A DNA stretch of 32,106 nt from positions 1 to 32,106 of the IMG/VR virus record IMGVR_UViG_3300004463_000242; one strand, given 5' to 3'. The DNA is from a virus. Shown piece after piece: positions 2,114 through 32,055 of the stretch (its first letter is position 1; each line of letters opens with the position of its first letter). A program made the position numbers and the translations under genes. Below the pieces are notes generated by a model. That model had not been told where the DNA came from, ran no database searches, and worked only from the letters and a program-made list of their open reading frames with translations.

Positions 2114-2388
2114 TGTGGTGTGTAGTGTACAATAACTCCGTGAATTTGATAATTCTTTGGATTATAACAAGTTACAATAACTTCGCCTGGTTGAAGTATA
2201 TCCCAATCATCAACCTTGAATTTCTTTCCACAAGCCTTTAAAATCTTTTCGGCCATAGTTGGCGCGGTCTTTGTGTCTTCCCTTTTGGTTATGGAGTTTG
2301 AAAATATTAACACCCCAACAGCCAACACGAACATCAGCCAAAGAACAACCAACCAAAATATAATTGCCCCTCTATTCACCAACACCAT
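2110..2388 (-). CDS. Membrane-anchored protein, 92 aa
   Basis: Residues 8-29 form a clear hydrophobic helix rich in Ile, Leu, Val and Trp, preceded by Arg5. The rest (about 31-92) is a soluble domain with the motif DDWDILQPGEVIVTCYNPKNY. The likely topology is an N-terminal anchor with the soluble domain outside. The first codons lie on the left edge of a GC-rich island, while the body is AT-rich like the genes after it. It overlaps the upstream gene by 17 bases and the downstream gene by four. No ribosome-binding site is obvious, so coupling is likely. Function unknown. Confidence 0.65.
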   Translation of the reverse strand: MVLVNRGAIIFWLVVLWLMFVLAVGVLIFSNSITKREDTKTAPTMAEKILKACGKKFKVDDWDILQPGEVIVTCYNPKNYQIHGVIVHYTPQ

Positions 2389-2731
2389 CCAGGCGGGCGA
2401 GCGGGCCTATGATGCGCTTCACCCGGTCATGCTCGGGTGGGAACTCAAGGAACTGCTCGGGCGTCGCGGGCCAGTAGGTGAAGCTCTCCCGCAACGCTTC
2501 CCCAAGTTCCTCCGCGAGTTCGGCTTTCGCGGCGAGGTCACGGAGAGCAGCGCGGGCGGCCTGCGTGTTGGGACGCACGTCGTTGACGAGCACGGTGTCG
2601 ATCCAATCGAACACCCGCTCCACGGTCTGCTGGAGCTTCGCGACACCCTGGTTCTCGGCCGGACGGGTCACGGGCTTGTCGTCGCAGTTCCAGGGATAGC
2701 GGCAATCCTTGTCGCACTTGCAGACGGTCAC
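2372..2731 (-). CDS. Hypothetical protein in the GC-rich island, 119 aa
   Basis: The N-terminus carries closely spaced cysteines (CKCDKDC and a further C by residue 16) that could bind a metal. A helical region of about 80 residues rich in Ala, Leu, Glu and Arg follows. The start is GTG at 2731, overlapping the stop of the upstream gene by four bases (GTGA). The whole gene is GC-rich (39 of 60 bases at 2461-2520), unlike genes on either side, so it probably came in as a block with 2728-3495 from a higher-GC phage. No enzyme family is recognised. Confidence 0.6.
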   Translation of the reverse strand: MTVCKCDKDCRYPWNCDDKPVTRPAENQGVAKLQQTVERVFDWIDTVLVNDVRPNTQAARAALRDLAAKAELAEELGEALRESFTYWPATPEQFLEFPPEHDRVKRIIGPLARLDGVGE

Positions 2732-3495
2732 GCGCCACCCCCGTCCCCGCCGAGCAAGCGGTTGGACTCCCCGAACACAGCAGGATCAGCCTTCACCTGT
2801 CTCGCGCCACCCCCATCCGGCAGCAGCCCTGCGCGCCGCAGGTCATCACCGTGCGTCGGGTCGATCCCCCGCGGGCACGCGCCACCCCCGTCCCCGGCCA
2901 GCGCGGCACGGGCGAAGCATCCAACGCAACCGTCAAGATGCTGTCCCGCATCGGGGTCAGGTTCCGCGACGATACAGTGGTAGTCGCGGTCAATCTCCCG
3001 CAGCACGGCTTTCAGTTCGGCTACCCGGCGGTCGGCGGACTCCAACTCAGCGAGGTACCCGTCAGGCAGCGTCGTCTCCATCGCGTACACCCGGCCCTGC
3101 AACTTGTCCCGCTCCTGCTCCAGTTCGGCTACCCGGCGGGCAAGACGGGACTCCCGCTGTTCGATCCATTCCCCGATCTGCTGCATGTCGGGATCGCTGA
3201 GCAGGAAGTCCACCTCGGCTTGCAGACGGTCACGGTCAGCCTCGGCAGCCTCCGCACGCTCCTCTGCCAGCGAGATTTCTGCCTGCATCGCAGAGCGCCA
3301 GAAGTCGGAGTTGTCGCGGGCGCGAGCGGCAAGGTCGGAGAGAGCGGCGTCGAACTCGACTTGATCCGGCAGCGGGTTGGACGAGTCCGGCCGCCACGCC
3401 TCCAGCGTCTCTACGAGCGTGTCCACGTTCACGGTGTCAGCCTCCTTATATGGAGTGTTTGTATATCCCATATGGTCACCTTCAGATTCAGTCAT
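2728..3495 (-). CDS. Coiled-coil protein with cysteine motif and repeated DGGGA tail
   Basis: The protein is mostly a long coiled coil (about residues 60-170, rich in Ala, Glu, Arg and Leu). It then has a short Cys/His-containing segment (HLDGCVGCFAR), which may bind zinc, and a C-terminal tail in which DGGGA occurs three times at 24-25-residue spacing. Three starts are possible: ATG 3495, coupled by TAATG to the upstream gene; ATG 3471, behind GAAGGTG; and GTG 3432, eight bases after a perfect AAGGAGG. The GC-rich composition begins right at that last site, so GTG 3432 may be the native start and the first 21 residues a later extension. Function unknown. Confidence 0.6.
   Translation of the reverse strand: MTESEGDHMGYTNTPYKEADTVNVDTLVETLEAWRPDSSNPLPDQVEFDAALSDLAARARDNSDFWRSAMQAEISLAEERAEAAEADRDRLQAEVDFLLSDPDMQQIGEWIEQRESRLARRVAELEQERDKLQGRVYAMETTLPDGYLAELESADRRVAELKAVLREIDRDYHCIVAEPDPDAGQHLDGCVGCFARAALAGDGGGACPRGIDPTHGDDLRRAGLLPDGGGARQVKADPAVFGESNRLLGGDGGGA
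2731..2896 (-). repeat. Three-copy GC-rich repeat encoding DGGGA
   Basis: On the plus strand CGCGCCACCCCC recurs at 2731, 2803 and 2878, each time followed by GTCC or ATCC. The spacing is 72 and 75 bases, so all copies stay in one reading frame. On the minus strand each copy encodes DGGGA. In the copy at 2731 the same bases form the stop of one gene and the GTG start of the next, so the copies look like repeated gene-junction sequences. Confidence 0.7.
3441..3447 (-). promoter_or_regulatory. Strong internal ribosome-binding site at GC-island edge
   Basis: On the minus strand a perfect AAGGAGG stands eight bases before GTG 3432. It is inside the longest form of the gene 2728-3495, at residue 22. 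It is much stronger than the sites before ATG 3471 and ATG 3495 and marks the point where composition changes from AT-rich to GC-rich. Confidence 0.6.
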
Positions 3496-3695
3496 TATTT
3501 CTCAATCAGACTAGCTACATACTCAGAAAGTGTATAATAAGTCTGGCCGGTTTCCCGATCAAGAATTTCCACATAGTCCCCGTTCATTTTATCTAGCGCC
3601 TTCTTGTACTCCGGAATGCGCCCTACGTCGATAAATTGCATATATATGATTTCGCCTGTGGCGTCCTCGATTGTCACTACTGCTGGTTTGTCCAT
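3495..3695 (-). CDS. Hypothetical protein, 66 aa
   Basis: A small, probably beta-rich soluble protein (motifs VVTIEDATGEIIY and YVEILDRETGQTYYTL). The frame could also begin at GTG 3701, but ATG 3695 lies six bases after an extended -10 element (TG, one base, TACCAT) with no Shine-Dalgarno. That is the same layout as five other genes in this window, so ATG 3695 is preferred and the mRNA is probably leaderless. It is the first gene of the leftward operon that ends at 1239, and its stop overlaps the ATG at 3495. No family is recognised. Confidence 0.6.
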   Translation of the reverse strand: MDKPAVVTIEDATGEIIYMQFIDVGRIPEYKKALDKMNGDYVEILDRETGQTYYTLSEYVASLIEK

Positions 3696-4596: not shown

Positions 4597-4996
4597 TAAG
4601 CTAGATAGTGCAGATGCTATTCTTAGGCTCTCTTCTCCGGTTGGAATGGAGAACGGAGTAAAACAAGTAATTATCCGCCATTGCGGATTCGAACTGTATA
4701 ATACAAGACCTTATCACAATTATGAAACATGGAGCGATGGATATTTGATTTTAGGAACTAAGGATGGAAAAGCAAAATCATTTGACTGGTTTCTAGAGCA
4801 ATATAGATTGCCTGTTAAAGATAGAGCAGAATTGTTTTTAATTGTGTCTGCTGAAGATTTAGATGATGCTGCTTTTAAAGTCGCCAAAGAATTAAGACAG
4901 ACAGACAAGATTTTAGAATGGTGTAATCGCGTCTTAAGCAAAGGAACAAATCGGGCGCTTTCTCTAAGAAAGAAGTTTTCTAATGTTAGAAGCTAA
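4577..4996 (+). CDS. Hypothetical protein, 139 aa
   Basis: The start is GTG at 4577 with GGAAAGGA six bases upstream, a good ribosome-binding site. The protein mixes beta-type (VKQVIIRHCGFELY, GYLILGTKDG) and helical segments and ends with a basic stretch (RALSLRKKF). It overlaps the next gene, a macro-domain protein, by 14 bases, so the two are probably made together. No catalytic motif is recognised. A role linked to the macro-domain neighbour is possible only by position. Confidence 0.6.
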   Translation: MSDKGFDKLDSADAILRLSSPVGMENGVKQVIIRHCGFELYNTRPYHNYETWSDGYLILGTKDGKAKSFDWFLEQYRLPVKDRAELFLIVSAEDLDDAAFKVAKELRQTDKILEWCNRVLSKGTNRALSLRKKFSNVRS

Positions 4997-5429
4997 AGGA
5001 AATATGTGGGATGCAAATGTTGATGCATTTGTAATCACAACAAATGGATTTGTTAAGAAAAATGGTGAAGCTGTAATGGGACGCGGTTGTGCTTTTGAAG
5101 CAAAACAAAAAATTCCTAGAATTTCAAAGGATTTAGGGAGGGACTTAAGAAATGGTAATAATATTCCATATTGCTATGGATATGAAAACGAAAAAGGAGA
5201 ATCAATTGTTGTCTATACCCTGCCAGTAAAACATAATTGGTGGGAAGAAGCTGATCTAGAATTAATTGAAAAATCCTTGCCGCTCCTTATTGATCTTGTT
5301 GATTTGTTTGGCGATCAAAAGCTTGCCATGCCAAGACCTGGATGTGGAAATGGAAAACTTGATTGGGATGAAGTAAAACCAATTATTGAAAAATATTTGG
5401 ATGATAGATTTATAGTTTATGATTACTAA
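4983..5429 (+). CDS. Macro-domain protein (ADP-ribose / ADP-ribose-1''-phosphate type)
   Basis: The 148 residues fit a single macro domain. Near the N-terminus are the strand DAFVITTNGFV and the glycine loop MGRGCAF, which in macro domains surround the ADP-ribose pyrophosphates. Near the C-terminus MPRPGCGNGKLDW matches the second binding loop as in Poa1-type ADP-ribose-1''-phosphatases. Such proteins bind ADP-ribose, remove it from targets or dephosphorylate ADP-ribose-1''-phosphate. It overlaps a metallophosphoesterase gene by 11 bases, which suggests a shared job on nucleotide products such as those of NAD-dependent host defence; that role is inference. The fold assignment is fairly sure, the substrate is not. 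Confidence 0.75.
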   Translation: MLEAKGNMWDANVDAFVITTNGFVKKNGEAVMGRGCAFEAKQKIPRISKDLGRDLRNGNNIPYCYGYENEKGESIVVYTLPVKHNWWEEADLELIEKSLPLLIDLVDLFGDQKLAMPRPGCGNGKLDWDEVKPIIEKYLDDRFIVYDY

Positions 5430-5955
5430 AGACACCTGGATAATAAGCGATACTCATTTTGGGCACAAGAACATAATTCGGTTTTGCGACCGTCCTCATA
5501 ACCATGAGGATGTAATGATCCATAACTGGAAGATGACTGTGAATCCAGATGATACAATTCTTCATCTTGGTGATGTTGCTTTTGGCAACCCTAAAGAGAT
5601 TTATTATTGGGCGAACATCATAAAAGAAGAACTTCCTGGCCGTAAGTTCCTTATCAAAGGTAATCATGATCATTCAAGATCAATGAAAATCTACAAAGGC
5701 ATCTTCGAGGTTGTCGATCCTTTCGTTCAGGACTTTTCAGACGTAAAATTTTTCTTTTCACACTATCCAGACCATCCAACTTCAATGGAGTGGGATATAA
5801 ATGTGCATGGTCATATTCACAATAATCCTCTTCGTGGAGAATTTTCTCCAATGGTTGATCTTGACAAAATTTATGAGAATGTCAGTATTGAAATGACAAA
5901 TTATGCTCCGATTAAGATGGAAAAGATTCTTATGAAGTGGGGCGTACCTTTTTAG
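5419..5955 (+). CDS. Calcineurin-like metallophosphoesterase, 178 aa
   Basis: All metal-binding blocks of the family are present in order: D11-x-H13 in SDTHFGH, GDVAF at 51-55 (D52), GNHD at 81-84 (N82, H83), SHYP at 114-117 (H115) and HGHIH at 130-134. This is a complete two-metal phosphoesterase of the small, single-domain type. Possible substrates are cyclic nucleotides, nucleotide phosphates or RNA ends; the sequence does not choose. The gene overlaps the macro-domain gene by 11 bases and is the last of its operon, followed by a strong terminator. It is distinct from the longer HTH-containing metallophosphoesterase at 11986-13068. Confidence 0.85.
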   Translation: MITKDTWIISDTHFGHKNIIRFCDRPHNHEDVMIHNWKMTVNPDDTILHLGDVAFGNPKEIYYWANIIKEELPGRKFLIKGNHDHSRSMKIYKGIFEVVDPFVQDFSDVKFFFSHYPDHPTSMEWDINVHGHIHNNPLRGEFSPMVDLDKIYENVSIEMTNYAPIKMEKILMKWGVPF

Positions 5956-10781: not shown

Positions 10782-10889
10782 TCTATACTTTACGTCTTTT
10801 AGATATATTGCCTTTCTTTTCTCCGAGACTAGCTTTCGGAGAATTTGTCGTTCTTCAAAACTAAGTTTCTTCTTCGGCTTAGTAGGCAT
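10773..10889 (-). CDS. Small basic protein, 38 aa
   Basis: This short frame encodes a lysine/arginine-rich protein (MPTKPKKKLSFEERQIL at the start, then SEKRKAIYLKDVKYRLN). The start overlaps the end of the dNMP kinase gene by 11 bases, the same junction size seen repeatedly in this phage, and it fills what would otherwise be a gap. The ribosome-binding site is weak (AGAGAT). A nucleic-acid-binding role would fit the charge but is inference. Confidence 0.5.
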   Translation of the reverse strand: MPTKPKKKLSFEERQILRKLVSEKRKAIYLKDVKYRLN

Positions 10890-11454
10890 ATGATTCTATC
10901 TCTAGAAACTTCACAAACTCATCTACTCTTTCATATAGTTCTTCCATAGTTCCATTATTTTCAATAGAATAATCAACCAAATATATTGGTGGCGCTATTT
11001 CTGATGCATGAGTATCAAAGCTATCTAGCTCTGAGCGAGTAATTCGCACATTATAGCCGCCAAGCGATTTAATTCTTTGTAGCTCGTTCTCAAATCGAGC
11101 ATCTGTGAATACAAAATCCTTATTTGAGTCAACACCCTTCAAGGCATGATCCACCCAGAAGTCTGTTCCAAAGATATCCCTATGTGCCTCTGTGCCGTAT
11201 CTTTGTAGAAATTCTCTTACTGAAATATTAACAACAGGTTCATCTTCTTCATGATCTGAATCAACGATCTTTATTCTTGCATCGTTGTTGTTCTTCCAAA
11301 CCTCCCAAAAGATTGAATTAACATCAAATAGCGCTGACGCTGATTCCTTTAGTTTGGCTGCAAATGACAGCCTTTCAAATCCATATTCTTCAACAAGATA
11401 CTGACCAACAGTATCTTTCCCTACTCCCTTAAATCCATTAATTCCTACTAGCAT
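10879..11454 (-). CDS. Deoxynucleoside monophosphate kinase, 191 aa
   Basis: The P-loop GFKGVGKDT at residues 8-16 binds ATP. The segment REFLQRYGTEAHRDIFGTDFW, from about residue 79 on, is the signature of phage dNMP kinases of the T4 gene 1 type, and FTDARFENEL is the following conserved block. The enzyme phosphorylates dNMPs to dNDPs for phage DNA synthesis and often accepts unusual bases. Length matches the family. A GAGGAAAA ribosome-binding site precedes the ATG. It lies downstream of the acidic 51-residue gene in the same leftward operon. Confidence 0.85.
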   Translation of the reverse strand: MLVGINGFKGVGKDTVGQYLVEEYGFERLSFAAKLKESASALFDVNSIFWEVWKNNNDARIKIVDSDHEEDEPVVNISVREFLQRYGTEAHRDIFGTDFWVDHALKGVDSNKDFVFTDARFENELQRIKSLGGYNVRITRSELDSFDTHASEIAPPIYLVDYSIENNGTMEELYERVDEFVKFLEIESYAY

Positions 11455-11471: not shown

Positions 11472-11627
11472 TCAGAAATCTTCTCTTTCATCAATATATC
11501 TATAGTCATCAATTTCATCAATTTTATCCCAATCATCAATTAGATCATCTTCGCTCCAATCTTCATTTTGATCAAATGGCCAAAAATCATCTAATTCTTC
11601 TTCAACCCATTCTTCTCTTTCGTTCAT
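11472..11627 (-). CDS. Extremely acidic protein with repeated Trp motif, 51 aa
   Basis: Of 51 residues, 25 are Asp or Glu and only four are Lys or Arg, so the net charge is about -21. Four tryptophans stand at 7, 16, 24 and 33. Residues 5-16 (EEWVEEELDDFW) and 22-33 (EDWSEDDLIDDW) are two copies of one 12-residue motif. A good ribosome-binding site (AGGTGAT) lies before the ATG. The properties match small DNA-mimic or basic-protein-binding phage proteins such as anti-restriction or anti-histone-like factors, but no family is recognised. It lies between a coiled-coil protein gene and the dNMP kinase gene. Confidence 0.7.
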   Translation of the reverse strand: MNEREEWVEEELDDFWPFDQNEDWSEDDLIDDWDKIDEIDDYRYIDEREDF

Positions 11628-11716
11628 ATTAATCACCTACTTGTATACTATAAAAGAAATAGCATACACATCAATTAAAAACAAAATAATAGATATTGTG
11701 GCAATTATTATTCCTG

Positions 11717-12016
11717 CTAGCGATTGTATAGCTCGTCCTCTAATTTTTCTACCCTCTCTTGTAATGAATCTCTTTCTTCAAGAATTGTCATATATTGTCT
11801 ATATATTTCTTCTGGCCAATTAGGACGAGTTTTTGCTCCAACCAACACCATTTCAGAGTTGCACCAGCCGCATAATTGATCCATGACATTTTCAATTAAT
11901 TCAATATTGATATCATGCCATTCTGAGATAATGGCTAATTGCCTTACTTTTTCAAGATTTTTATAGGCAACTTGCGCTGCATTATCTAATTTAGGGCTGG
12001 TACCGGAGCGCTCCAT
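11717..12016 (-). CDS. Coiled-coil hypothetical protein, 99 aa
   Basis: The N-terminal two thirds are mixed and contain a CGWC pair (in DQLCGWCNSEM). The C-terminal 25 residues form a heptad-like coiled coil (ILEERDSLQERVEKLEDEL). The start overlaps the end of the HTH-metallophosphoesterase gene by 31 bases, so the two are coupled. The CxxC pair could be redox-active or bind metal with a partner, but it is isolated. No family is recognised. Confidence 0.65.
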   Translation of the reverse strand: MERSGTSPKLDNAAQVAYKNLEKVRQLAIISEWHDINIELIENVMDQLCGWCNSEMVLVGAKTRPNWPEEIYRQYMTILEERDSLQERVEKLEDELYNR

Positions 12017-13068
12017 ATATCTGCCTCTTCTTCTGTATTTCCATAATGTTTGTTTTCAAAGATAAATCCTCTACCAGTGGCTTTTACAAGTTGAATATTG
12101 AAGTTGTCTGTTCTGGTTGAGAATGTACCAATCCAAAATGCTTGTTTCCAGTTAGCCTCATTTCTGACATAATCTGGATTTAATTTACATAAACATCCTG
12201 TTTCGAACCATTGTAGCTCGCGGAACCCTGTTCTTGAGTGAGAATCCGCTCTATGCGTGTGACCCATTACTCCTGAAATAAGAGTCTGTTCAAGTCTGGC
12301 CTTAGCTGTATATCCAGACTGTGAACGAATCACTGAACCATGTTCCACAAGAAAATCATCTGTAAGACGGAATCCATTCATTGGCCAATGTCTAATCTCT
12401 AGCTCGTCTAATCCTAGCAGCTTGCTAGGCTTTAGCGCACTAAGCGACTTGAGTGCAGGAGCATTGAAGGCTGGATAAGTGATAAGTCGCTCTTCGTGGT
12501 TTCCAATCGTCTCTTCAAAGCGAGTGTTCGGCATTGCCTTGCGATAAGCGGCACGAATGGCCTTGCCCATATCCAACTCTGATTGTAATATGTCCAAACG
12601 TTCGTTGGCTTTGTTAAATCTGGATATTCCAAAGAAGTCATTTAAATCTCCATTTATGATAAATATATCCGGATCAATTGATTTTGCAATTTCAATAGTG
12701 GCAGCTATCAAAACTTCGTCATGATAAGGGACGTGAATATCGTTGACCCCCATTACAGTTACCCATTGCTTATTGGGAAGATCAATTACTGGCGCAAGCC
12801 CTTCTCCCCAGATTTCTGATTTGGGAATATCAAAATCTGGATCATATCTATATGGATCATAATTTAAATAGCTTGCACTATTTCCACTTGTTATTCTAGT
12901 TAGTTCACTTTTAAATATTCTGCGATAGCCTTTGTCATCTATGAAATAATCAAGAGTTTTTCTATCGCATCGTTTTTTTAGTAAATTGCGAGACACACCA
13001 AGCTGCTCAGCAGCCTCAGTGAGGGTAATAGAACCATTTTCTTGCAATTTATCTTGTTTTTCTGTCAT
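11986..13068 (-). CDS. HTH-metallophosphoesterase fusion, 360 aa
   Basis: Residues 14-55 look like a MerR/excisionase-type helix-turn-helix (LTEAAEQLGVSRNLLKKRC, then a YRRIFKSEL wing). From about residue 100 a calcineurin-like phosphoesterase follows, with ND-I-H in GVNDIHVPY, NGDLNDFF, GNHEERL and GHTHR as metal-binding blocks. A DNA-targeted nuclease or phosphatase is suggested. It starts the leftward operon and has a good GGAGGAAA site before the ATG. The promoter must lie in the 65-base divergent region 13069-13133, shared with the zinc-ribbon gene. It is the second metallophosphoesterase in the window and shows no close similarity by eye to that at 5419-5955. Confidence 0.75.
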   Translation of the reverse strand: MTEKQDKLQENGSITLTEAAEQLGVSRNLLKKRCDRKTLDYFIDDKGYRRIFKSELTRITSGNSASYLNYDPYRYDPDFDIPKSEIWGEGLAPVIDLPNKQWVTVMGVNDIHVPYHDEVLIAATIEIAKSIDPDIFIINGDLNDFFGISRFNKANERLDILQSELDMGKAIRAAYRKAMPNTRFEETIGNHEERLITYPAFNAPALKSLSALKPSKLLGLDELEIRHWPMNGFRLTDDFLVEHGSVIRSQSGYTAKARLEQTLISGVMGHTHRADSHSRTGFRELQWFETGCLCKLNPDYVRNEANWKQAFWIGTFSTRTDNFNIQLVKATGRGFIFENKHYGNTEEEADIWSAPVPALN

Positions 13069-31955: not shown

Positions 31956-31983
31956 ATTACTTACACTGTGCTGTCAACTCTAG

Positions 31984-32055
31984 CTCCACTCCTAGGATTC
32001 GAACCTAGATCGCCGGATTCAGAGTCCGGTATCCTACCAGTTAGACGATGGTGGA
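31984..32055 (-). tRNA. tRNA-Gln (anticodon CTG)
   Basis: On the minus strand a 72-base cloverleaf is readable. The D arm contains AACTGGTAG. The anticodon arm is CCGGA / CTCTGAA / TCCGG with CTG at the anticodon. The T arm is CTAGG / TTCGAAT / CCTAG. Five of seven acceptor pairs are standard (TCCAC/GTGGA); the two inner ones do not pair. No CCA is encoded. It reads CAG codons. Confidence 0.85.

Follow-up and report, generated by a model that had tools for sequence, protein, structure and literature searches.

The window is an entire IMG/VR virus record (32,106 bases), and it encodes a strongly acidic protein of 51 amino acids, most of whose conservation lies in a short C-terminal block around W33 and in its negative charge. 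The protein belongs to an ORFan family from a small group of uncultivated phages; the family is new and narrow, and its kind is ordinary. We propose that it is a disordered polyanion that is made together with genes for replication and nucleotide metabolism, and that it docks onto one partner via the C-terminal aromatic motif. This proposal is tentative: we find it plausible, but hold it with a little less confidence than doubt.

A real gene for a very acidic protein

The gene lies on the minus strand, and its ORF begins with ATG:

11472..11627, minus strand: acidic protein gene, 51 amino acids (ATG at 11627, TGA at 11472-11474)
11634..11638, minus strand: AGGTG ribosome-binding site of the acidic gene (from the sequence)

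An alternative GTG, three codons upstream of the ATG, falls within the AGGTG site. The initial annotation had described an ORF of 51 residues, 25 acidic and 4 basic, with tryptophans at positions 7, 16, 24 and 33, and had not given its strand; translation of the minus strand (MNEREEWVEEELDDFWPFDQNEDWSEDDLIDDWDKIDEIDDYRYIDEREDF) confirms this composition. The protein is thus 49% aspartate or glutamate (25/51) and has 4/51 lysines or arginines. Among the 203 ORFs of at least 40 amino acids in the window, it is the most acidic (46% D/E for the form that starts at the GTG, versus 22% for the runner-up).

A direct search with the acidic protein sequence alone did not find any relatives. Contigs with relatives were instead reached via the major capsid protein and the metallophosphoesterase, and the small acidic ORF was then located in the same slot. 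This identified five relatives, all in IMG/VR phages with a common major capsid protein: L002 (57% identical to the window's protein), L006 (68%), L012 (44%; from a contig of 102,756 bases), L013 (36%) and L014 (33%). Between the window's gene and its two closest relatives, dN/dS is 0.27 (versus L002) and 0.16 (versus L006), with about 0.1 for the C-terminal half versus both, and the C-terminal half has a dN/dS of 0.07 between L014 and L013; these values are rough, as dS is near saturation and each comparison has just 43–58 codons, and comparisons between subgroups are uninformative. By these codon comparisons, the gene is under purifying selection relative to its closest relatives. We consider it to be a real gene because of the relatives in the same slot of five other phage contigs and because of the dN/dS of 0.16–0.27.

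L013 and L014 form a distant subgroup, and the profile similarity between them and the rest does not reach significance by itself (E of about 1.3 among 10,519 ORFs). What ties them to the other members is the C-terminal block and synteny. Scans of 50,697 phage records and of 84,980 species, each represented by one genome, gave no relatives of the acidic protein; since a search can readily overlook sequences this short and biased, the result says only that close relatives did not turn up. Weak relatives of the neighboring genes did not indicate any single host.

Searches of family libraries agree with the initial annotation's statement that no described family is known to have this motif. Pfam, NCBIfam, PADLOC, and PDB have no match to the acidic protein, even at E = 10, and in PHROG there were only two chance-level matches for the family, neither of them convincing. 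We rejected phrog_24688 (E = 0.039, for L013 only), which matches the unconserved N-terminal part and did not recur across the six records searched. We also rejected a candidate promoter directly before the acidic gene (11674-11647, 9/12 matches): promoter-like matches in this region are at chance number, and the hexamers are lost in L002 and L006.

The C-terminal block and the charge are conserved, and the tryptophan repeat is not

The alignment of the six members has one well-conserved region:

11496..11537, minus strand: conserved C-terminal block, residues 31-44, DDWDKIDEIDDYRY (from the alignment, the dN/dS of about 0.1 versus L002 and L006, and a shuffle test)

All six members have the block, whose consensus is [DEN][DE]W[DN]xI[DE]x[VI][DE]DY. 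The invariant columns of the alignment are M1, E10, W33, I36, D41, and Y42. In the distant pair of L013 and L014, the score of the block is matched by 0 and 7 of 20,000 shuffles, with the block having been picked after the alignment was viewed.

The N-terminal half is fast-evolving and aligns poorly. Nevertheless, the net charge is −17 to −26 in all members. The initial annotation had raised the possibility that the acidic residues would not be conserved among homologs; instead, each of the six members has 23–28 acidic residues and 2–6 basic ones. In L002 and L006, codons for the tail of the acidic protein double as the start of a following gene of 74 amino acids, which is absent from the window. 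Because of this overlap, the last residues of the protein are partly shaped by the following gene in those two phages.

The initial annotation also reported a duplicated W..E..L..D.W motif with periodic tryptophans. The two 12-residue stretches do match at 6 of 12 positions, yet when the same residues were shuffled 2000 times, 416 of the shuffled sequences held a pair that is at least as alike. For the window's protein and the three relatives closest to it, the aligned residues are W/Y/W/W at Trp7, W/W/W/Y at Trp16, and W/W/I/F at Trp24. The leucine of the first copy is not kept in the closest relatives, and Trp33 is the only one of the four tryptophans that is invariant in all six members. 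With most of these tryptophans and leucines lost in relatives, the duplicated motif is not a feature of the family. We rejected the motif as a structural repeat, as it is unconserved and no better than chance for this composition (about one in five shuffles).

The acidic gene lies upstream of a dNMP kinase gene

In the window, a minus-strand operon encodes, in order, a metallophosphoesterase, a coil protein of 99 amino acids, a candidate membrane microprotein, the acidic protein, and a deoxynucleoside monophosphate (dNMP) kinase. A glycosyltransferase and a basic helix-turn-helix-like (HTH-like) protein are also among the neighbors.

11986..13068, minus strand: metallophosphoesterase (PF00149; phrog_221) with an N-terminal helix-turn-helix-like part; the operon's first gene
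11717..12016, minus strand: coiled-coil-like protein, 99 amino acids; same operon
11637..11744, minus strand: candidate membrane microprotein, 35 codons, IRGRAIQSLAGIIIATISIILFLIDVYAISFIVYK; in the −1 frame of the coil gene, with no ATG, GTG or TTG start and a possible ATT start
10879..11454, minus strand: dNMP kinase (PF21448, phrog_139); the next downstream gene in the six records, save for one small intervening gene in L002 and L006
10506..10781, plus strand: basic HTH-like protein, 91 amino acids, convergent; pI 10.3, weak match to a phage sigma factor; in all six records

The frame of the candidate microprotein (34–35 codons, ending in SFIxYK) is conserved between the coil and acidic genes in the window, L002, and L006. 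These three genomes also share a GAGAGGG site, placed seven bases ahead of an ATT or ATC codon; translation of the microprotein may therefore begin at an unusual start codon or result from a frameshift out of the coil gene.

What lies upstream of the acidic gene varies: four records have the metallophosphoesterase operon, while L013 and L014 have a polymerase-type exonuclease and two small ORFs. On contig G001 (102,756 bases), the operon is co-directional with the genes for DNA polymerase and single-stranded DNA-binding protein (SSB) and is opposed to the structural genes, which suggests that it is expressed with the replication genes.

In all six records, the acidic gene is upstream of the dNMP kinase gene and on the same strand, despite the changes in its upstream neighbors. 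So we considered that the acidic protein might be a regulatory or stabilizing partner of the kinase, which could tune the enzyme or tether it to a nucleotide-synthesis complex. This seems unlikely to us, although it deserves some weight. The kinase is itself acidic (pI of 4.5–4.9), and another small gene intervenes in L002 and L006. Furthermore, there was no family member among the ORFs of 75 further kinase loci from outside the clade; in general, then, the kinase does without the acidic protein. The annotated phages that we inspected also had no family member beside their kinases.

On electrostatic grounds, the kinase (pI 4.5–4.9) makes a poorer candidate partner than would a basic protein such as the convergent HTH-like one (pI 10.3). 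The acidic protein might antagonize a basic DNA-binding protein, either this phage protein or a nucleoid or transcription protein of the host. Their charges are opposite, and the HTH-like protein is encoded nearby in all six records. However, the HTH-like gene (82–94.5% protein identity across the relatives) is far more conserved than the acidic gene, and both may merely belong to a common genome core. We view such antagonism as improbable. The HTH-like protein is also more conserved than the adjacent kinase.

A different explanation is that the short ORF mainly couples translation of the upstream gene to that of the kinase, in a tightly packed operon, and that the peptide itself matters little. 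The spacing is tight, as coupling would lead one to expect: in L012 and L014 the acidic gene touches or overlaps the kinase gene, and in L002 and L006 it overlaps the gene that comes next. But the purifying selection is at the amino-acid level, and both the motif and the charge are conserved, so we think that this explanation is very unlikely to be correct.

Structure prediction gives no support for rigid DNA mimicry

Given the family alignment, AlphaFold2 did not predict a fold for either of two different members (pLDDT of 57.8, pTM of about 0.2), although this alignment is thin and low confidence from six sequences does not prove disorder. Charge-hydropathy values are on the disordered side for all six members. 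From these predictions, the acidic protein is probably unfolded.

The initial annotation suggested that the protein is a DNA mimic or a binder of a basic protein, for instance in anti-restriction or anti-CRISPR. As the acidity is conserved, a binder is plausible. The predictions do not support rigid mimicry of DNA by a folded protein like Ocr or ArdA: AlphaFold2 gives no fold, PDB has no match, and the charge-hydropathy values point to disorder. As for anti-restriction or anti-CRISPR, nothing recognizable in the surroundings points there; the neighbors are enzymes that act on nucleotides and nucleic acids.

Ocr from phage T7 inhibits type I restriction and mimics DNA. It has 116 residues (34 acidic and 6 basic) and is a folded, elongated homodimer (PMC4872106). 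The acidic protein resembles Ocr in that it is small, phage-encoded, and far richer in acidic than in basic residues. Unlike the folded dimer Ocr, it has just 51 amino acids and no predicted fold, and it is encoded in a nucleotide-metabolism operon; it has no sequence similarity to Ocr. Similarly, p56 of phi29, Ugi of PBS2, and Gp46 of SPO1 are short, strongly acidic, phage-encoded inhibitors, which are folded and have defined partners. The acidic protein is likewise short, acidic, and phage-encoded, and it showed no similarity to them in family and structure-sequence searches (Pfam, PHROGs, NCBIfam, and PDB). Those general libraries (Pfam, PHROG, NCBIfam, and PDB) also gave no match between the acidic protein and known anti-CRISPRs.

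Overall, a small phage-encoded protein with 49% acidic residues might be a rigid DNA mimic that inhibits a restriction, CRISPR, or repair enzyme, in the manner of Ocr, ArdA, p56, or the acidic anti-CRISPRs. With no predicted fold, a fast-evolving N-terminal half, no match to a solved or catalogued protein, and no recognizable anti-defense neighbor, we consider that there is only a slim chance of this.

The proposed role of the acidic protein

We propose that the protein serves a tailed phage as a small accessory factor, polyanionic and intrinsically disordered. It would be made from the minus-strand operon that includes the metallophosphoesterase and dNMP kinase genes, which runs in the direction of the replication genes, and its partner would be one that is produced or encountered in the course of replication. 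Acting as a linear-motif binder, the protein would insert its acid-flanked W-x-x-I-x-x-[VI]-x-D-Y stretch into a groove on a single partner protein. The negative charge of the acidic N-terminal half would shield a basic surface of that partner or compete for it; this surface would probably be one that binds nucleic acids. We infer the disorder in the cell, the binding, the nature of the partner, and the competition with nucleic acid. A charged peptide could equally serve in a complex that is internal to the phage.

A more specific version of our proposal is that the disordered polyanion switches off a nucleic-acid-binding protein of the host or the phage, via W-x-x-I-x-x-[VI]-x-D-Y, and so competes with DNA without being a folded mimic. 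We would not expect this narrower version to be correct, but it is not far-fetched. If the motif does dock on a nucleic-acid-binding protein, then the acidic protein would be a very small inhibitor that acts without a fold. As matters stand, it adds another narrow family to the ORFans, one whose minimal motif (W33, I36, D41, and Y42) is clear.

Linear motifs of the acid-flanked W-x-x-I type, such as the eukaryotic LIR motifs, and the acidic, aromatic tails of SSBs also have an aromatic and an aliphatic residue, spaced by two, among acidic residues in a disordered segment. The likeness to the acidic protein is one of chemistry only and does not imply common ancestry; furthermore, the acidic protein does not have the terminal Pro-Phe of SSBs. 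We considered and rejected mimicry of the SSB tail. The terminal phenylalanine of the window's protein is not kept in the relatives (L002 and L006 add an aspartate, and the others end differently), and the SSB that is encoded on the 102-kb contig does not have a similar tail.

Other features of the window

A block at about 2250-3500 of the window is 60–68% G+C, in a region that is otherwise 36–44% G+C. This block looks as if it was imported from a high-G+C source. Its ORFs, at 2372-2731 and 2728-3495 on the minus strand, have no match in PHROG. The window also encodes a second calcineurin-like phosphoesterase (5419-5955, plus strand; phrog_547), which is overlapped by the gene for a macro-domain-like phosphatase (4983-5429, plus strand; phrog_335). 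Near the end of the contig is a gene for tRNA-Gln (CTG), at 31983-32055 on the minus strand.
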